Part shown: positions 36,078-58,858 of the stretch, in pieces | Position numbering within the stretch: position 1 is the stretch's first letter | Layout: every line of letters begins with the position of its first letter | Source: Candidatus Saccharimonadota bacterium | GTDB taxonomy: Bacteria > Patescibacteriota > Saccharimonadia > Saccharimonadales > UBA10212 | Assembly: GCA_016176605.1 (NCBI GenBank) | Contig: JACOWW010000002.1 | Coordinates: forward strand, 2,846-66,845 | Length of the DNA stretch: 64,000 nt | Reading direction: 5' to 3' | Notes under the pieces: model-generated | Told to the model about the DNA's origin: nothing | What the model saw: only the letters and a program-made list of their open reading frames with translations | Database searches by the model: none | Program-made: the position numbers and the translations under genes

Positions 36078-39077
36078 ATGAATAAAGTGAAAAAGTCTGC
36101 TACGGCATTGGCCGAAGAGAAGATGCTGAAGCTTTGGGCTAAGGAAAAAACTTTTGAAAAAAGCCTAAAGTTACGCGAAAAAGCGCCCTACTTCAGTTTT
36201 TACGACGGCCCGCCTTTTGCCAATGGCCTACCGCATTATGGCCATGTAGTGCCTTCGACCATCAAAGATGCCGTTGCCCGCTATAAGACAATGCGGGGAT
36301 ACTACGTACTTCGAGTGGCTGGCTGGGATACTCATGGCTTGCCGGTTGAGTACGACGTCGAAAAACAGCTGGGCCTATCAGGTAAAAAACAGATCCTGGA
36401 AATGGGCGTTGATAAGTTTAATCAAGCCTGCCGGGACTCGGTATTCCGCTACAAAAGCGAGTTCGAGGACTTTATCCGTCGCCTGGGCCGGTGGGTAGAT
36501 CTGGATAACTCCTACGCCACATTAGATGATAGCTACATCGAGAGCGTCTGGTGGGTCTTTGCCGAAATTTACAAAAAGGGCCTGGTTTACAAGGGTTTTC
36601 GCAGTATGCCGTACTGCCCGCGCTGTGCCACACCGTTGTCTAACTTTGAGCTTAACCAGGGCTACCAGGACGACATAGAAGACCCCAGTGTTTTTGCTAC
36701 ATTCCCGCTGAATGATAATCCAAAGGTGAAATTGCTGGCTTGGACGACGACGCCTTGGACACTGCCGGCGAATGCCGCTCTGGCAGTCGATGCCAAGGCC
36801 GATTATGCTTATGCTCAGCTCAAAAAAGACGGCTCAGTGCTCGTTTTAGCCAAAAAACGCCTCGATGTACTGGATTTACGGAAAAGCGACTATAAGGTCT
36901 TAAAAACGGTCAAAGGCAAGGAGTTGGTCGGACTAAAATACCAGCCATTGTATCCGTTGCCCAAAAACCATAAGTTTACTTCCCAACAAACAGAAAAAGC
37001 CTGGCATGTTTATGCTGATGAGAACGTTAGCTTAGAAGACGGAACAGGTATCTTGCATGTAGCACCACGCTATGGAGAAACCGATTTGGCGCTTGGCCTA
37101 AAAGAGAGGCTGCCACTGCTTGAAAGTGTCGACGGTAATGGGCTAATGGTCTGGCCTGAATCAGTCAAAGGTTTGTTTTTCAAGAAAGCCGATGAGCACA
37201 TAATTGCTGACCTCACCAGAAAAGAGCGCATATTTGCTGCCGAAACCGCCAAGCACACCTATCCGTTCTGCTGGCGCTGCGACACGCCGCTGATGTATTT
37301 TGCCACGCCGTCTTGGCTAATCAAAGTGACTGATATCAGAGATGATCTGGTTAAAAATAATCAAAAAATTAACTGGATACCCAAGCACATCCGCGACGGC
37401 CGTTTTGGCAACTGGCTGGCCGATGCCCGTGATTGGGGTATTTCACGCAACCGCTTTTGGGGCTCGCCACTGCCGGTCTGGCTGTGCGATAAAGAACACG
37501 TAACAGTGGTTGGCAGCCTGAAAGAGCTAAAAGAAAAAGCGGTTAGTTTGCCAAAAGAATTGGATTTACATCGCCCCGGCATTGATAAAATCGAGCTGAA
37601 GTGCGACAAGTGCAGCCGGCCGGCAAAACGAGTAGAAGAAGTTTTCGACTGCTGGTTTGAATCGGGCGCTATGCCGTACGCTTCCATTCATTATCCTTTT
37701 GAGAACCAAGAAGAGTTTAAAAAAAGCTTTCCAGCGGAATTTATATCTGAAGGGCTAGACCAAACCCGGGGTTGGTTTTACACCTTGCATGTACTGGGAA
37801 CGGCCCTATTTAACGAGCGCGTCTACCAAAATGTCGTCTGCCACGGTATTGTAGTGGCCGGTGACGGTAAGAAACTTAGTAAACGCCTAAACAACTATCC
37901 GCCGCTGGATAAAGTATTTAACACCTACGGTTCTGACATCCTTCGCTTCTTCATGCTTAGTTCACCGGTAGTGGTAGGGGAAGAAGTACGTTTTTCTGCC
38001 GATCATCTGCGCGACACTCAGCGCAATGTTTTTATGACGCTGCAAAACAGTTTTAGTTTCTTTAAGACCTACTCCGAAGTTGACAAATGGCACCCTACGG
38101 GTACGACCCGTAGATCTACGGGTCGTACCCGTAGGGACGCGATAGAGGCGCCATCTTCAGATAATTTGTTAGATAAGTGGATTTTAGCCAGACTAAACCA
38201 AACGATTTTAGAAGTGACAGCCGGTGCAGACTCTTATCAGATCAATAAAGCCACCCGCCCGATTGTTGAACTGTTGGAAAGCTTGTCTAACTGGTATATC
38301 CGCAGGAGCAGACGCCGTTTCTGGAAATCAGAAAACGACAAGGATAAAAACCAAGCCTATACAACTCTACACTACGTTCTGACCGTAATTAGTCAGCTTT
38401 TGGCTCCCTGGGCGCCGTTCATAGCCGATGAGTTGTGGCGCGAACTGACCAAAAACACCAACCAGCCAGAATCAGTCCACCTTAGTGACTGGCCGACCTC
38501 TGTAAAAGAGCCAGATAAGGCTAGTACTAAAGTACTAGAAGATATGGATATCGCCAGGGCCATAGTTCGTATCACTTTATCAAGTAGAGCAGATAAAAAG
38601 GTTAAGGTTAGACAACCTCTGAATTTACTAACATATTCATCTGAGAAAAGGCTGCACGAAGAGATAGAATCGATCATTTTAGATGAAGCTAATGTGAAAA
38701 AAATTACTTTTGATCCCGAGTATAAGAAAATCGGTATTGCAATAGACAGCGAGCCTGCAGATATTAGACCTGCAATAGGTGTAATACTTGATACTGAATT
38801 AACGAGTGAGCTCAAAAACGAGGGGATAATGCGCGAATTAGTGCGGCATGTCCAAAATGCTCGTAAAAAGGCCGGTTTGAACGTCGATGACCGTATAAAA
38901 TTGCGCCTAGAAACCGACTCCAAAGAGGTTAATGAAGCTATCAAACAGTTCAACAACACTATCTTTGCTGAAACCTTGACCATAGCTGAATTAACAGGAG
39001 AAGGGGATTACTCCGAAACTGTCAAAGTCGAAGACCAAGAAGTAAAAATCAGCCTAAAAAGGGTCATAGGGTCATAG
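36078..39077 (+). CDS. ileS: Isoleucyl-tRNA synthetase
   Basis: In this 999-residue class I synthetase the HIGH motif appears as LPHYGH and KMSKS as GKKLSKR; the editing domain (TTPWTLPANAAL, HVAPRYGETD) and the Trp/Cys-rich SWLIKVTD, CWRCDTPL region are in place. Around residues 672-687 a 44-bp perfect palindrome (38093-38136) inserts GTTRRSTGRTRRD before the anticodon-binding domain. The last codons and the stop come from the first units of a tandem 8-bp repeat. Charging of tRNA-Ile depends on this enzyme, so the inserted residues must be tolerated. Confidence 0.96.
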   Translation: MNKVKKSATALAEEKMLKLWAKEKTFEKSLKLREKAPYFSFYDGPPFANGLPHYGHVVPSTIKDAVARYKTMRGYYVLRVAGWDTHGLPVEYDVEKQLGLSGKKQILEMGVDKFNQACRDSVFRYKSEFEDFIRRLGRWVDLDNSYATLDDSYIESVWWVFAEIYKKGLVYKGFRSMPYCPRCATPLSNFELNQGYQDDIEDPSVFATFPLNDNPKVKLLAWTTTPWTLPANAALAVDAKADYAYAQLKKDGSVLVLAKKRLDVLDLRKSDYKVLKTVKGKELVGLKYQPLYPLPKNHKFTSQQTEKAWHVYADENVSLEDGTGILHVAPRYGETDLALGLKERLPLLESVDGNGLMVWPESVKGLFFKKADEHIIADLTRKERIFAAETAKHTYPFCWRCDTPLMYFATPSWLIKVTDIRDDLVKNNQKINWIPKHIRDGRFGNWLADARDWGISRNRFWGSPLPVWLCDKEHVTVVGSLKELKEKAVSLPKELDLHRPGIDKIELKCDKCSRPAKRVEEVFDCWFESGAMPYASIHYPFENQEEFKKSFPAEFISEGLDQTRGWFYTLHVLGTALFNERVYQNVVCHGIVVAGDGKKLSKRLNNYPPLDKVFNTYGSDILRFFMLSSPVVVGEEVRFSADHLRDTQRNVFMTLQNSFSFFKTYSEVDKWHPTGTTRRSTGRTRRDAIEAPSSDNLLDKWILARLNQTILEVTAGADSYQINKATRPIVELLESLSNWYIRRSRRRFWKSENDKDKNQAYTTLHYVLTVISQLLAPWAPFIADELWRELTKNTNQPESVHLSDWPTSVKEPDKASTKVLEDMDIARAIVRITLSSRADKKVKVRQPLNLLTYSSEKRLHEEIESIILDEANVKKITFDPEYKKIGIAIDSEPADIRPAIGVILDTELTSELKNEGIMRELVRHVQNARKKAGLNVDDRIKLRLETDSKEVNEAIKQFNNTIFAETLTIAELTGEGDYSETVKVEDQEVKISLKRVIGS
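38093..38136 (+). repeat. Perfect 44-bp palindrome R4 inside ileS
   Basis: The left arm CCCTACGGGTACGACCCGTA plus GA is exactly the reverse complement of the right arm. Related sequences with GGGTACGACCC occur at 50570 and 57648. Confidence 0.9.
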
Positions 39078-39713: not shown

Positions 39714-40214
39714 ATGATTCATGACTACAGGTATCAGGAAGTCGCCCGGCTTTTTTCCGGAGTCTTGAAACACTCCGGGATCAAGCCCCGCTTCTCCGCC
39801 TACCCCTTCGTTTCGCAAGAGGCGAAGAAGGTCGGCGGCCGTGAGATACTGTCAGACAGCACCTCCCACAGGCCGGTTCACTGGCATCTCCCCGACGGCG
39901 GAGTAGTCCGCTACGTCGGGCCAGTGCTTGTCAACCAGTGGTCACCACTGGTTGAGACGGTTCTAAACCGCGCAGCGGCGCGGCGGATCGTCGCCGAGGT
40001 CACCTACGTCACGGTGACCGAGGAGCGGGCTCGCCAGCTCGCCGCTCTGTCTTCCCTCGACATGAATCGGAGGGAGCTCAATAAGCTGGCCCTGGAGCAC
40101 GGACTTCAGGGCCCCCCGGTCATCTTGGCCGGACTGGTCGAGACCAACGAGATCGCCTATGGGGCGGTCGAGGAAGTCCTGGCCGAGCGGCGTCGGGCAA
40201 CCATCGCCGCCTAG
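39714..40214 (+). CDS. Cassette B: GC-rich hypothetical protein, 166 aa
   Basis: Strong AGGAGG and ATG start. The codons end mostly in G or C, unlike ileS upstream and rplU downstream. The protein is soluble, with an N-terminal helix (YRYQEVARLFSGVLKHSG), a beta region around WHLPDGGVVRYVGP and a helical C-terminal half with NRRELNKLALEHGLQGPPVILAGLVETNEIAYGAVEEVLAERRR. I do not recognise the family. Consensus promoter, long leader hairpin and a 350-nt structured 3' region make this a self-contained unit, probably well expressed. Confidence 0.7.
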   Translation: MIHDYRYQEVARLFSGVLKHSGIKPRFSAYPFVSQEAKKVGGREILSDSTSHRPVHWHLPDGGVVRYVGPVLVNQWSPLVETVLNRAAARRIVAEVTYVTVTEERARQLAALSSLDMNRRELNKLALEHGLQGPPVILAGLVETNEIAYGAVEEVLAERRRATIAA

Positions 40215-44100: not shown

Positions 44101-47100
44101 TTGGTACTGGGGCCTTAGCGGCTGGTTCCTTGGCGGCCGGCTTCACCACCGTGGCTGTCGGCCAGGGCGGCACCGGCGCCACCACCTTTACGGCTAATGG
44201 CGTGCTGTACGGCAATACTACTGGCGCCATCCAGGTAACGGCTGCCGGTACTACTAACCAGTGTTTAATCGCTACCACTGGCGCTGCCCCAAGTTGGGGC
44301 AGCTGTGCCGGTGCCACAACCACGTTGCAAAACGCCTACGATAACGACGGTGATGGCAGTGACAGCATAATCGCGCTGACTACTGCCGACGATTCCCTCA
44401 TTTTCCGTAACCCAGCCGCCGGCGGCAGTGACTCCACTTACATTCTGACCTTAGATCAACTATCCACCGGCGCTAGGGGCGGCTTGTCCATCCAATCGGC
44501 CGGCACCAGCAACCTTTTGCTTATTACTGATACCACCGCTACCGCCAGTGACGTAATGACAATCGCTGACGGTGGCGCCACCACCTTTAAAAACCAGACC
44601 AACTCCACCACTGCCTTCCAGATTCAAAACGCCGCGGGGACGAGCTTGCTGACAGCCGATACGTCAAACTTACTGGTGACGGTTGGTGGCGACTTGAAGA
44701 TTGGCCAATCTACAGACGTTTGGTCTAAAGCATCCCAAGCCACGGCTGGCACCATTGCCAGCGGCGGCACCTCGGGTATTGATCGAGTTCATGGGATGAC
44801 GGCAGTCTACAATGGCAGCCTCTACGTTGGCACCGATAAAACCAACGCCGCCGAGGTCTACCGCTACGACGGCGGCACCACCTGGACCAAGGTGAGTCAA
44901 GCCACGGCTGGCACTATTGCCAGCGGCGGCACCGCAAGTATTGATGGTATTAATACTATGACAATCTACAATGGCAGCCTCTACGTTGGCACTCTTGAAG
45001 CCAGTGCCGCCGAGGTCTACCGCTACGACGGCGGCACCACCTGGACCAAGGTGAGTCAAGCCACGGCTGGCACTATTGCCAGCGGCGGCACCGCGCTTAT
45101 TGATCGAGTTCATGGGATGACAGTCCACAACGGCAGCCTCTATATTAACACTCAGAAAACCAACGCCGCTGAGGTCTACCGCTACGACGGCGGCACCACC
45201 TGGACCAAAGTGAGCCAAGCCACGGCTGGCACTATTGCCAGCGGCGGCACCGCAAGTATTAATAGTGCTCATACGGCGGCAGTCCACAACGGCAGCCTCT
45301 ATATTGGCACTCAGAAAACCGGCGCCGCTGAGGTCTACCGCTACGACGGCGGCACCACCTGGACCAAGGTGAGTCAAGCCACGGCTGGCACCATTGCCAG
45401 CGGCGGCACCGCAAGTATTGATCAAATTCATGGAATGGCAGTCCACAACGGCAGCCTCTACGTTGGCACCGAGAAAGCCAATGCCGCCGAGGTCTACCGC
45501 TACGACGGCGGCACCACCTGGACCAAGGTGAGCCAAGCCACGGCTGGCACTATTGCCAGCGGCGGCACCGCAAGTATTGATGGTATTAATACTATGGCAG
45601 TCTACAGTGGTAGCCTCTTCCTTGGCACTCTTGAAACCGACGCCGCCGAGATCTACCGCTACGACGGCGGCACCACCTGGACTAAAGTCTCGCAAGCTAC
45701 TGCCGGAACAATTATGAGCGGCGGAACAACGCTTGTTTCTGGCGTTCAGGCTTCGGCCGTCTATAATGGCAAGCTCTATTTTGGTACCTTTAAAACCGGT
45801 GCGGCTGAAGTTTACGGTTATAGCGCCGTAGCGACACTAAGTACCAATGGTAGCAACGGACTTAACGTTGAGATCAATGGCACCTCGGTGGCTAGCTTAT
45901 CCAAAGCCGGTGCGGGACTATTCCAAAATTCCACCAACTCTACTACTGCCTTCCAGGTGCAAAACTCCGCAGGGGGGCAGCTCTTTAATATAGATACCAC
46001 CAACGCCGTACTTACCTTAAACGGTGTCAACGGCGCCGCCTTGCAAGCCTGGCAGACCAACGATTCCAGCGGCTTTACGGCCTACGGAGAGTTAGCCACC
46101 GCCGCAGCTAACGGCTATATTTATAGAATCGGCGGTTCGCCGGATGGCAGCGCCGGCGTCACCTCTGTTATTTACGCTAAGATCAACGCCAGCGGTTCAG
46201 TTGGTACCTGGAACTCTACCAGCGCTTTGCCTACCACCCTTTCGGATCAGGGGGCAGTGGCGGTCAACGGCTATGTGTACGCGGTCGGCGGCTGGAATGG
46301 CACAGTAGTAGTAGACTCGGTCTACTACGCCAAAATCAACCCTGACGGTACCTTGGGCAGCTGGACAGCCACTTCTTCGCTAACTGCGGCCAGGGGACAA
46401 CCCGGCGTGGTGGCCGCTGGCGGTTATGTTTACGCGGTTGGCGGCTATAACAGTACCGCTCAAACTACAGTGTACTATGCCAAAATTAATGCTGATGGAA
46501 CTTTGGGCACTTGGGCAACCACTTCGGCGCTGTCTGTCGCCCGGGCCTTTGGCGGCGCGGCCGTCGCCAATGGCTATGTTTACTATATGGGAGGCGATGA
46601 TGCCGCCGCCGCCGCCAGCAACGTGGTCCAGTACTCCCAGATCAACGCCACCGATGGCACCTTGGCGGCATGGGCTACCACCTCGACTCTGCCCAGCGCT
46701 GCCACGCATGTACCGGCCGCAACGCTCAACGGCTACCTTTATACTATAGGTGGCAAAATTTCCGGTAACCCCAGTAGCACGGTTTCTTACGCCAAGCTCA
46801 ACGCCAACGGTACCACCGACGCTTGGGCCAACGACACTAACACCTTGCCAGCGGCGATTCAATTCTCCGGCGCGGCTACCTATAATGGCTACCTATATTC
46901 GCTGGGCGGGTACACCAACGCGGCCGGCACTACGCCAACCTCGGCTGTCTACTATGCCTCGGCCTCCCGTATCAAAGTGGCCGGCTCGCTGGATTTGGTC
47001 GGCACTAGCGGCCAAACACTGGCCGATAGCGGCAGCGGCGGCAGTCTAACTGCCGGCAATACCAGCATTATTGGCAGCCTGCAGGTGCGCGACCAAGCCA

Positions 47101-50553: not shown

Positions 50554-50640
50554 CCCACCCCCCTTTACGGGTACGACCCATTAGTTGCAAGCACCAGCAT
50601 TTTATTTTATTTATGGGTCGTACCCTTAGGTGGGGGTTGT
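50554..50640 (+). terminator. R4-type inverted repeat after the surface operon
   Basis: The arms ACCCCCCTTTACGGGTACGACCCA and TGGGTCGTACCCTTAGGTGGG are nearly complementary around an AT-rich centre. The arm core GGGTACGACCC matches the palindrome in ileS. It likely terminates the surface-protein operon. Confidence 0.65.
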
Positions 50641-57495: not shown

Positions 57496-58356
57496 CTAAC
57501 GCTTCACCCTCAACGCTTCACCCTGCTTAAACAGCTGTATAAAATTGTCTGTTTCCAACAGGTTGTAATTAGCATGTCTAGCTATCTGCCTAAGTTTTTG
57601 GTGCTGGGGCGGCAGGGCCTCAGTAAATACATACTTAACCCCTCTACGGGTACGACCCTTAGAGGAGTTAAGTTGGTCAAATAAACGGCGGTAAACATCT
57701 AGCCCATCAGGACCGCCAAAGATGGCCGACTTTGGTTCGCGGGCTGCGGCCGGGTTAATTTGCCACTTATCTGGCACATAGGGCAGGTTGGCCAGCAAAA
57801 TATCGTACTTACGGGCCGGACGGTTGAGCAAATCGCGTTTATAGCAATGCAGGTGTAGTTCGTGCATATGGGCATTGTGGCGCGCCACAGCCAAACAGCT
57901 GGCGTCGATATCATACAAGTCAACCTCCGGATTGTGCAATTCCAGCGCCGCGCTAATCCCCAACGCTCCACAACCTGTCCCGATATCCGCTATTTTCCAG
58001 GGTGCCACCCTGGAAATAGGGGAATTGTGGTGGAGTAAGTTTTTTAGCATGTCGATCATCGCCTCGGATTCCGGCCGGGGTTCTAGAACGTGCTTATTAA
58101 CTTTGAACTTTCGGCCGTAAAATTCGCTAAATCCACGGATGTATGCTAACGGCTCGTGACTGGCGCGCCGAGCTACTTTTTTATTCAATTTCTTGAGCTG
58201 CTCGGGTTTTATTTCCACTTCCGGGTGCGCCAAAACCCACGCCCGATCCCGTCCCAGTTCATCCTCAAGAAGAATTAGGCTATCCAGTCGCGATGAAGCA
58301 ATGTTGGAATTCGACAATTTTTTAGTAGTTACAATCAACCACCGGTTAATTTTCAT
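57496..58356 (-). CDS. prmC: Release factor glutamine methyltransferase PrmC
   Basis: The start is taken at the ATG at 58356 (MKINRW), overlapping the kinase gene by 11 nt. In this 286-residue protein the SAM motif VADIGTGCGALGIS-type segment (ADIGTGCGALGI) and the catalytic NLPY (NPPY variant, ANLPYVPD) identify PrmC, which methylates the GGQ glutamine of RF1. A palindromic insertion (57634-57672, arms CTTAACCCCTCTA and TAGAGGAGTTAAG around CGGGTACGACCC) adds SSKGRTRRGVK near residue 240. It is in an operon after prfA and the P-loop kinase gene. Confidence 0.92.
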   Translation of the reverse strand: MKINRWLIVTTKKLSNSNIASSRLDSLILLEDELGRDRAWVLAHPEVEIKPEQLKKLNKKVARRASHEPLAYIRGFSEFYGRKFKVNKHVLEPRPESEAMIDMLKNLLHHNSPISRVAPWKIADIGTGCGALGISAALELHNPEVDLYDIDASCLAVARHNAHMHELHLHCYKRDLLNRPARKYDILLANLPYVPDKWQINPAAAREPKSAIFGGPDGLDVYRRLFDQLNSSKGRTRRGVKYVFTEALPPQHQKLRQIARHANYNLLETDNFIQLFKQGEALRVKR

Positions 58357-58858
58357 TGGCAAGAGCAATTATCTGGTCAACAACTTTTTTTAGCGGCTGT
58401 CGGCTATCAATTTCTGTGGCTGTAGGCACATTAAGTAAATTTCTCTGGAACTCCTCATGGCCCTCTAGTATTTCTTTTAATTGCTCAGGGTTTTTTCCGT
58501 AATCATTTGTATCTCTGTTTTGCAATCTGTGACGGATAGTTTCCACATCTGCGGTTAGGACAAATATATTATGAAAAAGTGAATAAAATCGCTCTTGGTT
58601 AGAAACTATTGCTGCCACAAACACAGTATCAGCACTTTCTAGTAATTTTCTAAGGCCTCCCTCTTGCCAGTTCCATGCATAAGTTGACCAATCTGTTGGA
58701 GGTTCTGGCCGCACGGCTGGTTGGCTAGTTGCTTTATATTCAAAACGCGTTACTTCCGGCAAATCATCGGTATTATATGCCGTAAAGCCCCGTTGCTTAA
58801 GTTCTTCGACAACGGAAGATTTACCCGTGCCGGCGTTACCCGTTATTAAGTATTTCAT
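58346..58858 (-). CDS. P-loop kinase-like protein (AAA_18/shikimate-kinase-like)
   Basis: This 170-residue protein has a Walker A GNAGTGKS at residues 7-14, followed by a lid-like stretch and a predicted Walker [24 protein letters not shown] resembles the LID of small nucleotide or metabolite kinases. The substrate is unknown. Its start overlaps the prfA stop by 4 nt (ATGA) and its end overlaps prmC by 11 nt, so the three genes are one tightly coupled operon. Confidence 0.8.

Follow-up and report, generated by a model that had tools for sequence, protein, structure and literature searches.

The closest described systems are the REP/REPIN elements and their RAYT transposases (TnpA-REP), in which short hairpins with a 3-nt loop occur at dispersed sites, singly and as inverted pairs. 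REPs within genes (tRNA synthetases, DNA ligase and others) and REP-flanked RAYT genes have been described, with the intragenic REPs forming a minority (PMC3733652), as has the recognition of REP hairpins by TnpA-REP (PMC8266576); REP/REPIN elements with RAYT and intragenic GTAG REPs are also treated in a further source (PMC3116915). A second group comprises the Rickettsia palindromic elements (RPE, 105-146 bp) and the coding palindromes of Wolbachia, which lie in frame in conserved protein genes (PMC2229807). RPE-4 and RPE-6 have been grouped with the CGTC REPs and were found not to be associated with transposase genes (PMC3733652). No report on RAYT or REP in CPR bacteria was found in the literature searched.

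The window analysed here is a stretch of 64,000 nucleotides from the genome of a tiny Saccharibacteria-type CPR bacterium from groundwater (728 kb, 89% complete; G000 below). It carries a palindrome in the gene for isoleucyl-tRNA synthetase which a first-pass annotation had likened to the Rickettsia elements. This likeness holds for the behaviour of the element, but REP/REPIN hairpins with their RAYT transposases are closer kin: in relatives of the window genome, several hairpin families flank a RAYT-like gene of their own and are found in frame within essential genes as well. The palindromes accordingly represent a REP/REPIN system of the intragenic kind, which earlier work has described, and not elements of the Rickettsia type; the statement that the system works like a REP/REPIN stands firmer than the statement that it is one. 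The ileS palindrome is probably a non-autonomous REPIN-like element spread by a RAYT, with its in-frame survivors translated and settled hairpins apparently overwritten. What is new is the lineage, the large proportion of copies within genes and their density, and signs of an apparent hairpin turnover at fixed sites.

The ileS palindrome and its repeat unit

36078 to 39077, plus strand: ileS, isoleucyl-tRNA synthetase, the host gene (TIGR00392, 888 bits against a cut-off of 621)
38093 to 38136, no strand: perfect 44-bp palindrome in ileS, an inverted pair of 19-bp units

The ileS reading frame of 999 aa is preserved by the palindrome, whose arms (38093-38114 and 38115-38136) measure 22 nt each and are 100% complementary with a spacer of 0, just as the perfect in-frame palindrome with identical arms had first been annotated. 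Its units (38095-38113 and 38116-38134) are joined head to head by AT, and two more outer pairs follow at each end, outside the 19-bp unit. Folding of the palindrome as single-stranded DNA gives -25.4 kcal/mol (z = -8.2), and the mRNA hairpin, at -48.3 kcal/mol for the 80-nt stretch (z = -8.5), is very stable.

In G000, 26 residues separate the motifs DKW and LDxW. Of the nine orthologues from the family that were compared, seven have 14 residues there, and the other two (G002 and G006) have 21-22. The palindrome does span about 15 codons, the number of residues it had been said to add, but the net gain against the common orthologue form is 12 residues (36 nt, in frame). Occurrence of the same residues in distant orthologues, which would have spoken against an insertion, was looked for, and they are absent from the nine family orthologues and from PDB 1ILE. 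Placed by alignment, the insert is opposite a loop of the Thermus enzyme 1ILE shortly before DRWLLARM, and the valS insert of G000 is in the corresponding linker.

The repeat unit is the 19-bp hairpin CTA(C/A)GGGTACGACCC(G/T)TAG with a 3-nt loop. Its boundaries were drawn from the pairing in 65 copies from five genomes: beyond the core four further pairs are kept per side and pairing is at background from the fifth on, which sets the unit at 19 bp. The first outer pair is formed in 60 of the 65 copies, as C-G in 26 and as A-T in 34, so both sides change together (covariation); all copies of G006 have A-T, and 13 of 16 in G008 have C-G. At the hairpin foot, where REPs canonically have an unpaired GTAG, the C-G type has this tetranucleotide within the stem and the A-T type reads TTAG. 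As in REP/REPIN elements, singles and inverted pairs are both present at dispersed sites. The pairs measure 40-44 bp, and this size, together with the 19-bp unit and the link to RAYT, sets them apart from RPE.

The sequence that the first-pass annotation had seen shared by three elements, GGGTACGACCC, is real: the window has five exact copies, or six against 0.64 expected when one mismatch is allowed, and a search of the whole genome gives 13 exact cores against 0 in a reversed-letter control. Cores were counted in 61 related genomes and in 380 of the phylum; high counts are confined to one family (G000 13, G002 14, G006 12, G008 16, G013 10), with counts mostly zero and at most five outside it. 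These copy numbers (about 10-16 cores per genome) are low for a REP/REPIN system, and the share in conserved genes is large. Viral contigs searched for the inverted pair had none. A genome-wide pair scan outside the family found Acidobacteria gp6, with a different outer stem, and isolated single cases elsewhere. In the Acidobacteria gp6 MAGs (L082, L093, L095, L099, L101) the GGGTACGACCC pairs are inverted and have outer stems rich in A (AAAAGGGG..CCCCTTTT); several lie within open frames, and two apparently share one site of a gene.

Stable hairpins with compensatory stem changes, placed by several genera in identical loops, could be retained for a function of the DNA or RNA itself, whether as a site of binding, as a signal for uptake or as an mRNA structure that regulates core genes. 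However, G001, a genome of the same genus as G000 and 99% complete, has 0 cores and the distribution elsewhere is patchy; several unrelated sequences occur at one site; and the dozen or so copies per genome are far below known uptake signals, which have far more. Such a function is therefore judged quite unlikely.

Further elements of the window

57496 to 58368, minus strand: prmC, release factor glutamine methyltransferase, host gene of two REP-type hairpins
57633 to 57673, no strand: single unit within a 41-bp palindrome in prmC, with a AGGAGTTA tail and a net gain of 4 residues
57994 to 58016, no strand: second, different prmC hairpin, TTTCCAGGGTGCCACCCTGGAAA, of the type flanking a RAYT of G001
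50557 to 50637, no strand: intergenic inverted pair with a 31-nt spacer, after the surface operon

The elements noted earlier in prmC and after the surface operon are thereby both recovered. The prmC product is above the cut-off of TIGR00536, with TIGR03534 giving the best E-value but 184.6 bits against a cut-off of 199.1. G006 has an inverted pair at a comparable distance from its own prmC. More copies of the TTTCCAGGGTGCCACCCTGGAAA type are found in G000 in TatD-like and prfB-like genes (named by eye from the sequence). Perfect stems of at least 9 bp with 3-nt loops also occur in open frames of the window at 39931-39955, 44283-44303 and 46308-46328, two of them within the ORF of a 2510-aa surface protein.

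In-frame copies in conserved genes

In-frame copies were found in valS, ileS, ksgA, prmC, lepA, ruvC, tgt, ychF, tsaD, an rsuA-like gene, nnrD and mnmA, and the corresponding loops are empty in sister genomes. Hairpin-free orthologues have a near-constant loop length (prmC 8, lepA 11, ruvC 16, rsuA 9). A match in G015 was rejected as the native RsuA motif RVVPVGRLD. Most copies of G000 are intragenic, while REP/REPIN elements are mainly extragenic; in-frame copies within genes, including those for tRNA synthetases and DNA ligase, are nonetheless known from REP/REPIN systems as well. The mnmA genes of G006 and G001 (L054, L204) hold another coding palindrome, LPAGRQG from CTGCCTGCCGGCAGGCAG, at an identical position.

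The dispersed in-frame copies and the empty sites of orthologues, which in-frame scoring and orthologue comparison were meant to reveal, support the idea of a coding-compatible mobile palindrome, as do non-palindromic tails common to unrelated loci. Next to the GGGTACGACCC unit the tail AGGAGTTA is found in ruvC, prmC, ychF and one intergenic copy; next to a TGATAGG hairpin the tail ACTAATGCTTA is found in tsaD, tgt and one intergenic copy.

The copies to survive would be those that landed in frame, and in one of the stop-free reading phases, within loops of conserved genes that tolerate them. As the frame is kept, they are probably translated, as short loops rich in Arg/Thr/Gly or Leu/Val/Arg/Pro, and may be neutral to the protein. 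A ribosome that skips the hairpin by programmed bypassing, a reading for which the strong mRNA hairpin speaks, could dispense with coding altogether; it would not require frame and stop-free phase, yet the CDS copies examined retain both, and bypassing is accordingly very improbable.

Inverted pairs add 6 to 13 residues in most cases (22 in tsaD of G008, which has a long spacer) and single hairpins 0 to 6; the net gain is nearly always below the size of the hairpin itself. At the N-terminal site of ksgA and the first site of tgt, among others, the length is unchanged. This counts against our proposal, since simple insertion does not predict gains that are smaller than the hairpin and sometimes zero. 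Such gains would follow if the element takes the place of part of the loop, or equally if residues beside it were trimmed afterwards.

In a shuffle test of twelve genes, G000 has 12 hairpins where about 0.25 are expected; these genes were chosen for carrying the core and the enrichment is therefore biased for the core family, a bias that does not extend to the other hairpin families found there. Unselected 100-kb stretches of four genomes have few such hairpins within genes, and the density is therefore uneven. Misassembly can create palindromes. Against chance or artefact stand the shuffles and the recurrence at orthologous sites of separately deposited MAGs with the coding frame kept. For the family this recurrence has already refuted chance and artefact, which have next to no probability left.

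RAYT-like transposases and their hairpins

As in REP/REPIN systems, an HUH/Y1 transposase gene is flanked by hairpins, here in the relatives of the window genome, and several hairpin families exist per genome. The RAYT-like proteins of the family have about 205 residues and are above the cut-off of Y1_Tnp. The HUH pair and the tyrosine are invariant in 21 of 21 aligned proteins, all of which match the REP-associated tyrosine transposase model NF047646, with the two scores inspected both below its cut-off. In this divergence from the NCBIfam model they differ from the RAYTs of described systems. A PDB sequence search with one RAYT as query had no match and the RAYT profile search only weak matches, to ISDra2; the fold was compared for this reason. 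An AF2 model of the G013 RAYT (pLDDT 88) matches the ISDra2 transposase and the RAYT-REP hairpin complex 4ER8; of its transposase matches, 4ER8 aligns over the greatest length. The fold and the predicted recognition of end hairpins are shared with IS200/IS605 elements (ISDra2, IS608), but here the hairpins disperse alone and the gene is not carried.

The hairpins that flank RAYTs differ from gene to gene. The G013 RAYT (G013:C32) has an inverted pair with the GGGTACGACCC core on either side, and the RAYT G006:C8 has this core at its 3' flank; in both cases the outer stem differs. The exact outer stem CTAMGGG..CCCKTAG was seen at no RAYT, and the ileS family is thus linked to a RAYT flank by its 11-bp core, not by the whole stem.

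Three more RAYT-linked hairpin families exist besides GGGTACGACCC, and these are also found in frame. The second, TGATAGGTTNAACCTATCA, flanks RAYTs of G006 and G002; the variant at the G002 RAYT is that of most dispersed copies in G002, and the G006 variant likewise in G006. In tgt, tsaD, ligA and mnmA its in-frame reading is VIGLTYH. The third and fourth families behave like the second. In the CAGGGTGSCACCCTG family, the TTACAGGG stem is present in the RAYT flanks of G011 and in most G011 copies examined, and G000 has the TTCCAGGG stem that is also beside a G001 RAYT. These flanks and genome-matched variants are the strongest argument that a RAYT may mobilise the hairpins, an argument which is correlative. 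A RAYT-type transposase (IS200-like HUH, Y1) would act on single-stranded hairpins and leave copies across the genomes of this Saccharibacteria family.

G000 departs from REP/REPIN systems in that neither PF01797 nor a RAYT protein search detected a RAYT, cognate or other, in this 89% complete genome; its copies may therefore be relics. This would also suit palindromes of the Rickettsia and Wolbachia type, reviewed for RPE as in-frame insertions in many conserved genes (PMC2229807), that spread by another route and are associated with RAYTs only incidentally. Such a coincidence is hard to reconcile with several families that each flank a RAYT within one genome family, with genome-specific variants matching, and it is considered unlikely. 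Spread by a RAYT is the reading retained here.

Apparent hairpin turnover at fixed sites

Another difference from REP/REPIN systems is that one loop carries different hairpin families in different genera. In a single loop of tgt, G000 has a GGGTACGACCC pair, G006 has TGTGATAGGTTTAACCTATCACA, G008 has TGCTACAAGGTTTAACCTTGTAGCA and G013 has TTCTAAGGGTCATACCCTTAGAA; one loop of ychF has three different hairpins across G000, G006 and G011, and ksgA has three kinds in four genomes. Two different hairpins with identical flanks are present in tsaD. G000 and G006 have a valS site in common, and even their 33-nt spacers there are recognisably alike; both hairpins are C-G in G000 and both A-T in G006. 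Parallel insertion into a few tolerant loops and exchange in place would both fit these patterns; change in place is favoured at tsaD and valS because the flanks and the spacer, respectively, are shared. Hairpins at settled sites appear to be replaced over time by the current type of the genome. The target-site duplication that goes with terminal inverted repeats in classical MITEs was not evident in the site comparisons, the sites being divergent.

The ileS and prmC genes of G002 and G006 (L149, L151, L044, L057), two genera from one sample, are unusually similar, which suggests gene exchange or binning overlap. With a common sample and some genes so alike, sites shared by these two genomes may reflect gene transfer.

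A more general proposition, put forward tentatively and rather doubtful at present, is that RAYT systems overwrite coding hairpins at fixed loops of essential genes with the type of the resident transposase while the length stays about the same. If true, loops of core proteins would record the transposases that each genome has had over time.

Significance

RAYT-REP systems are extended by these findings to streamlined CPR genomes, whose DNA codes for protein almost throughout and where a selfish repeat has to pass as protein. The orthologous sites, some empty and others with single, paired or exchanged hairpins, provide a test bed for the still unproven mobility of REPs and allow a direct test of how core enzymes tolerate inserted loops. 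Such loops in CPR proteins are probably derived from parasites and should not be read as adaptations.
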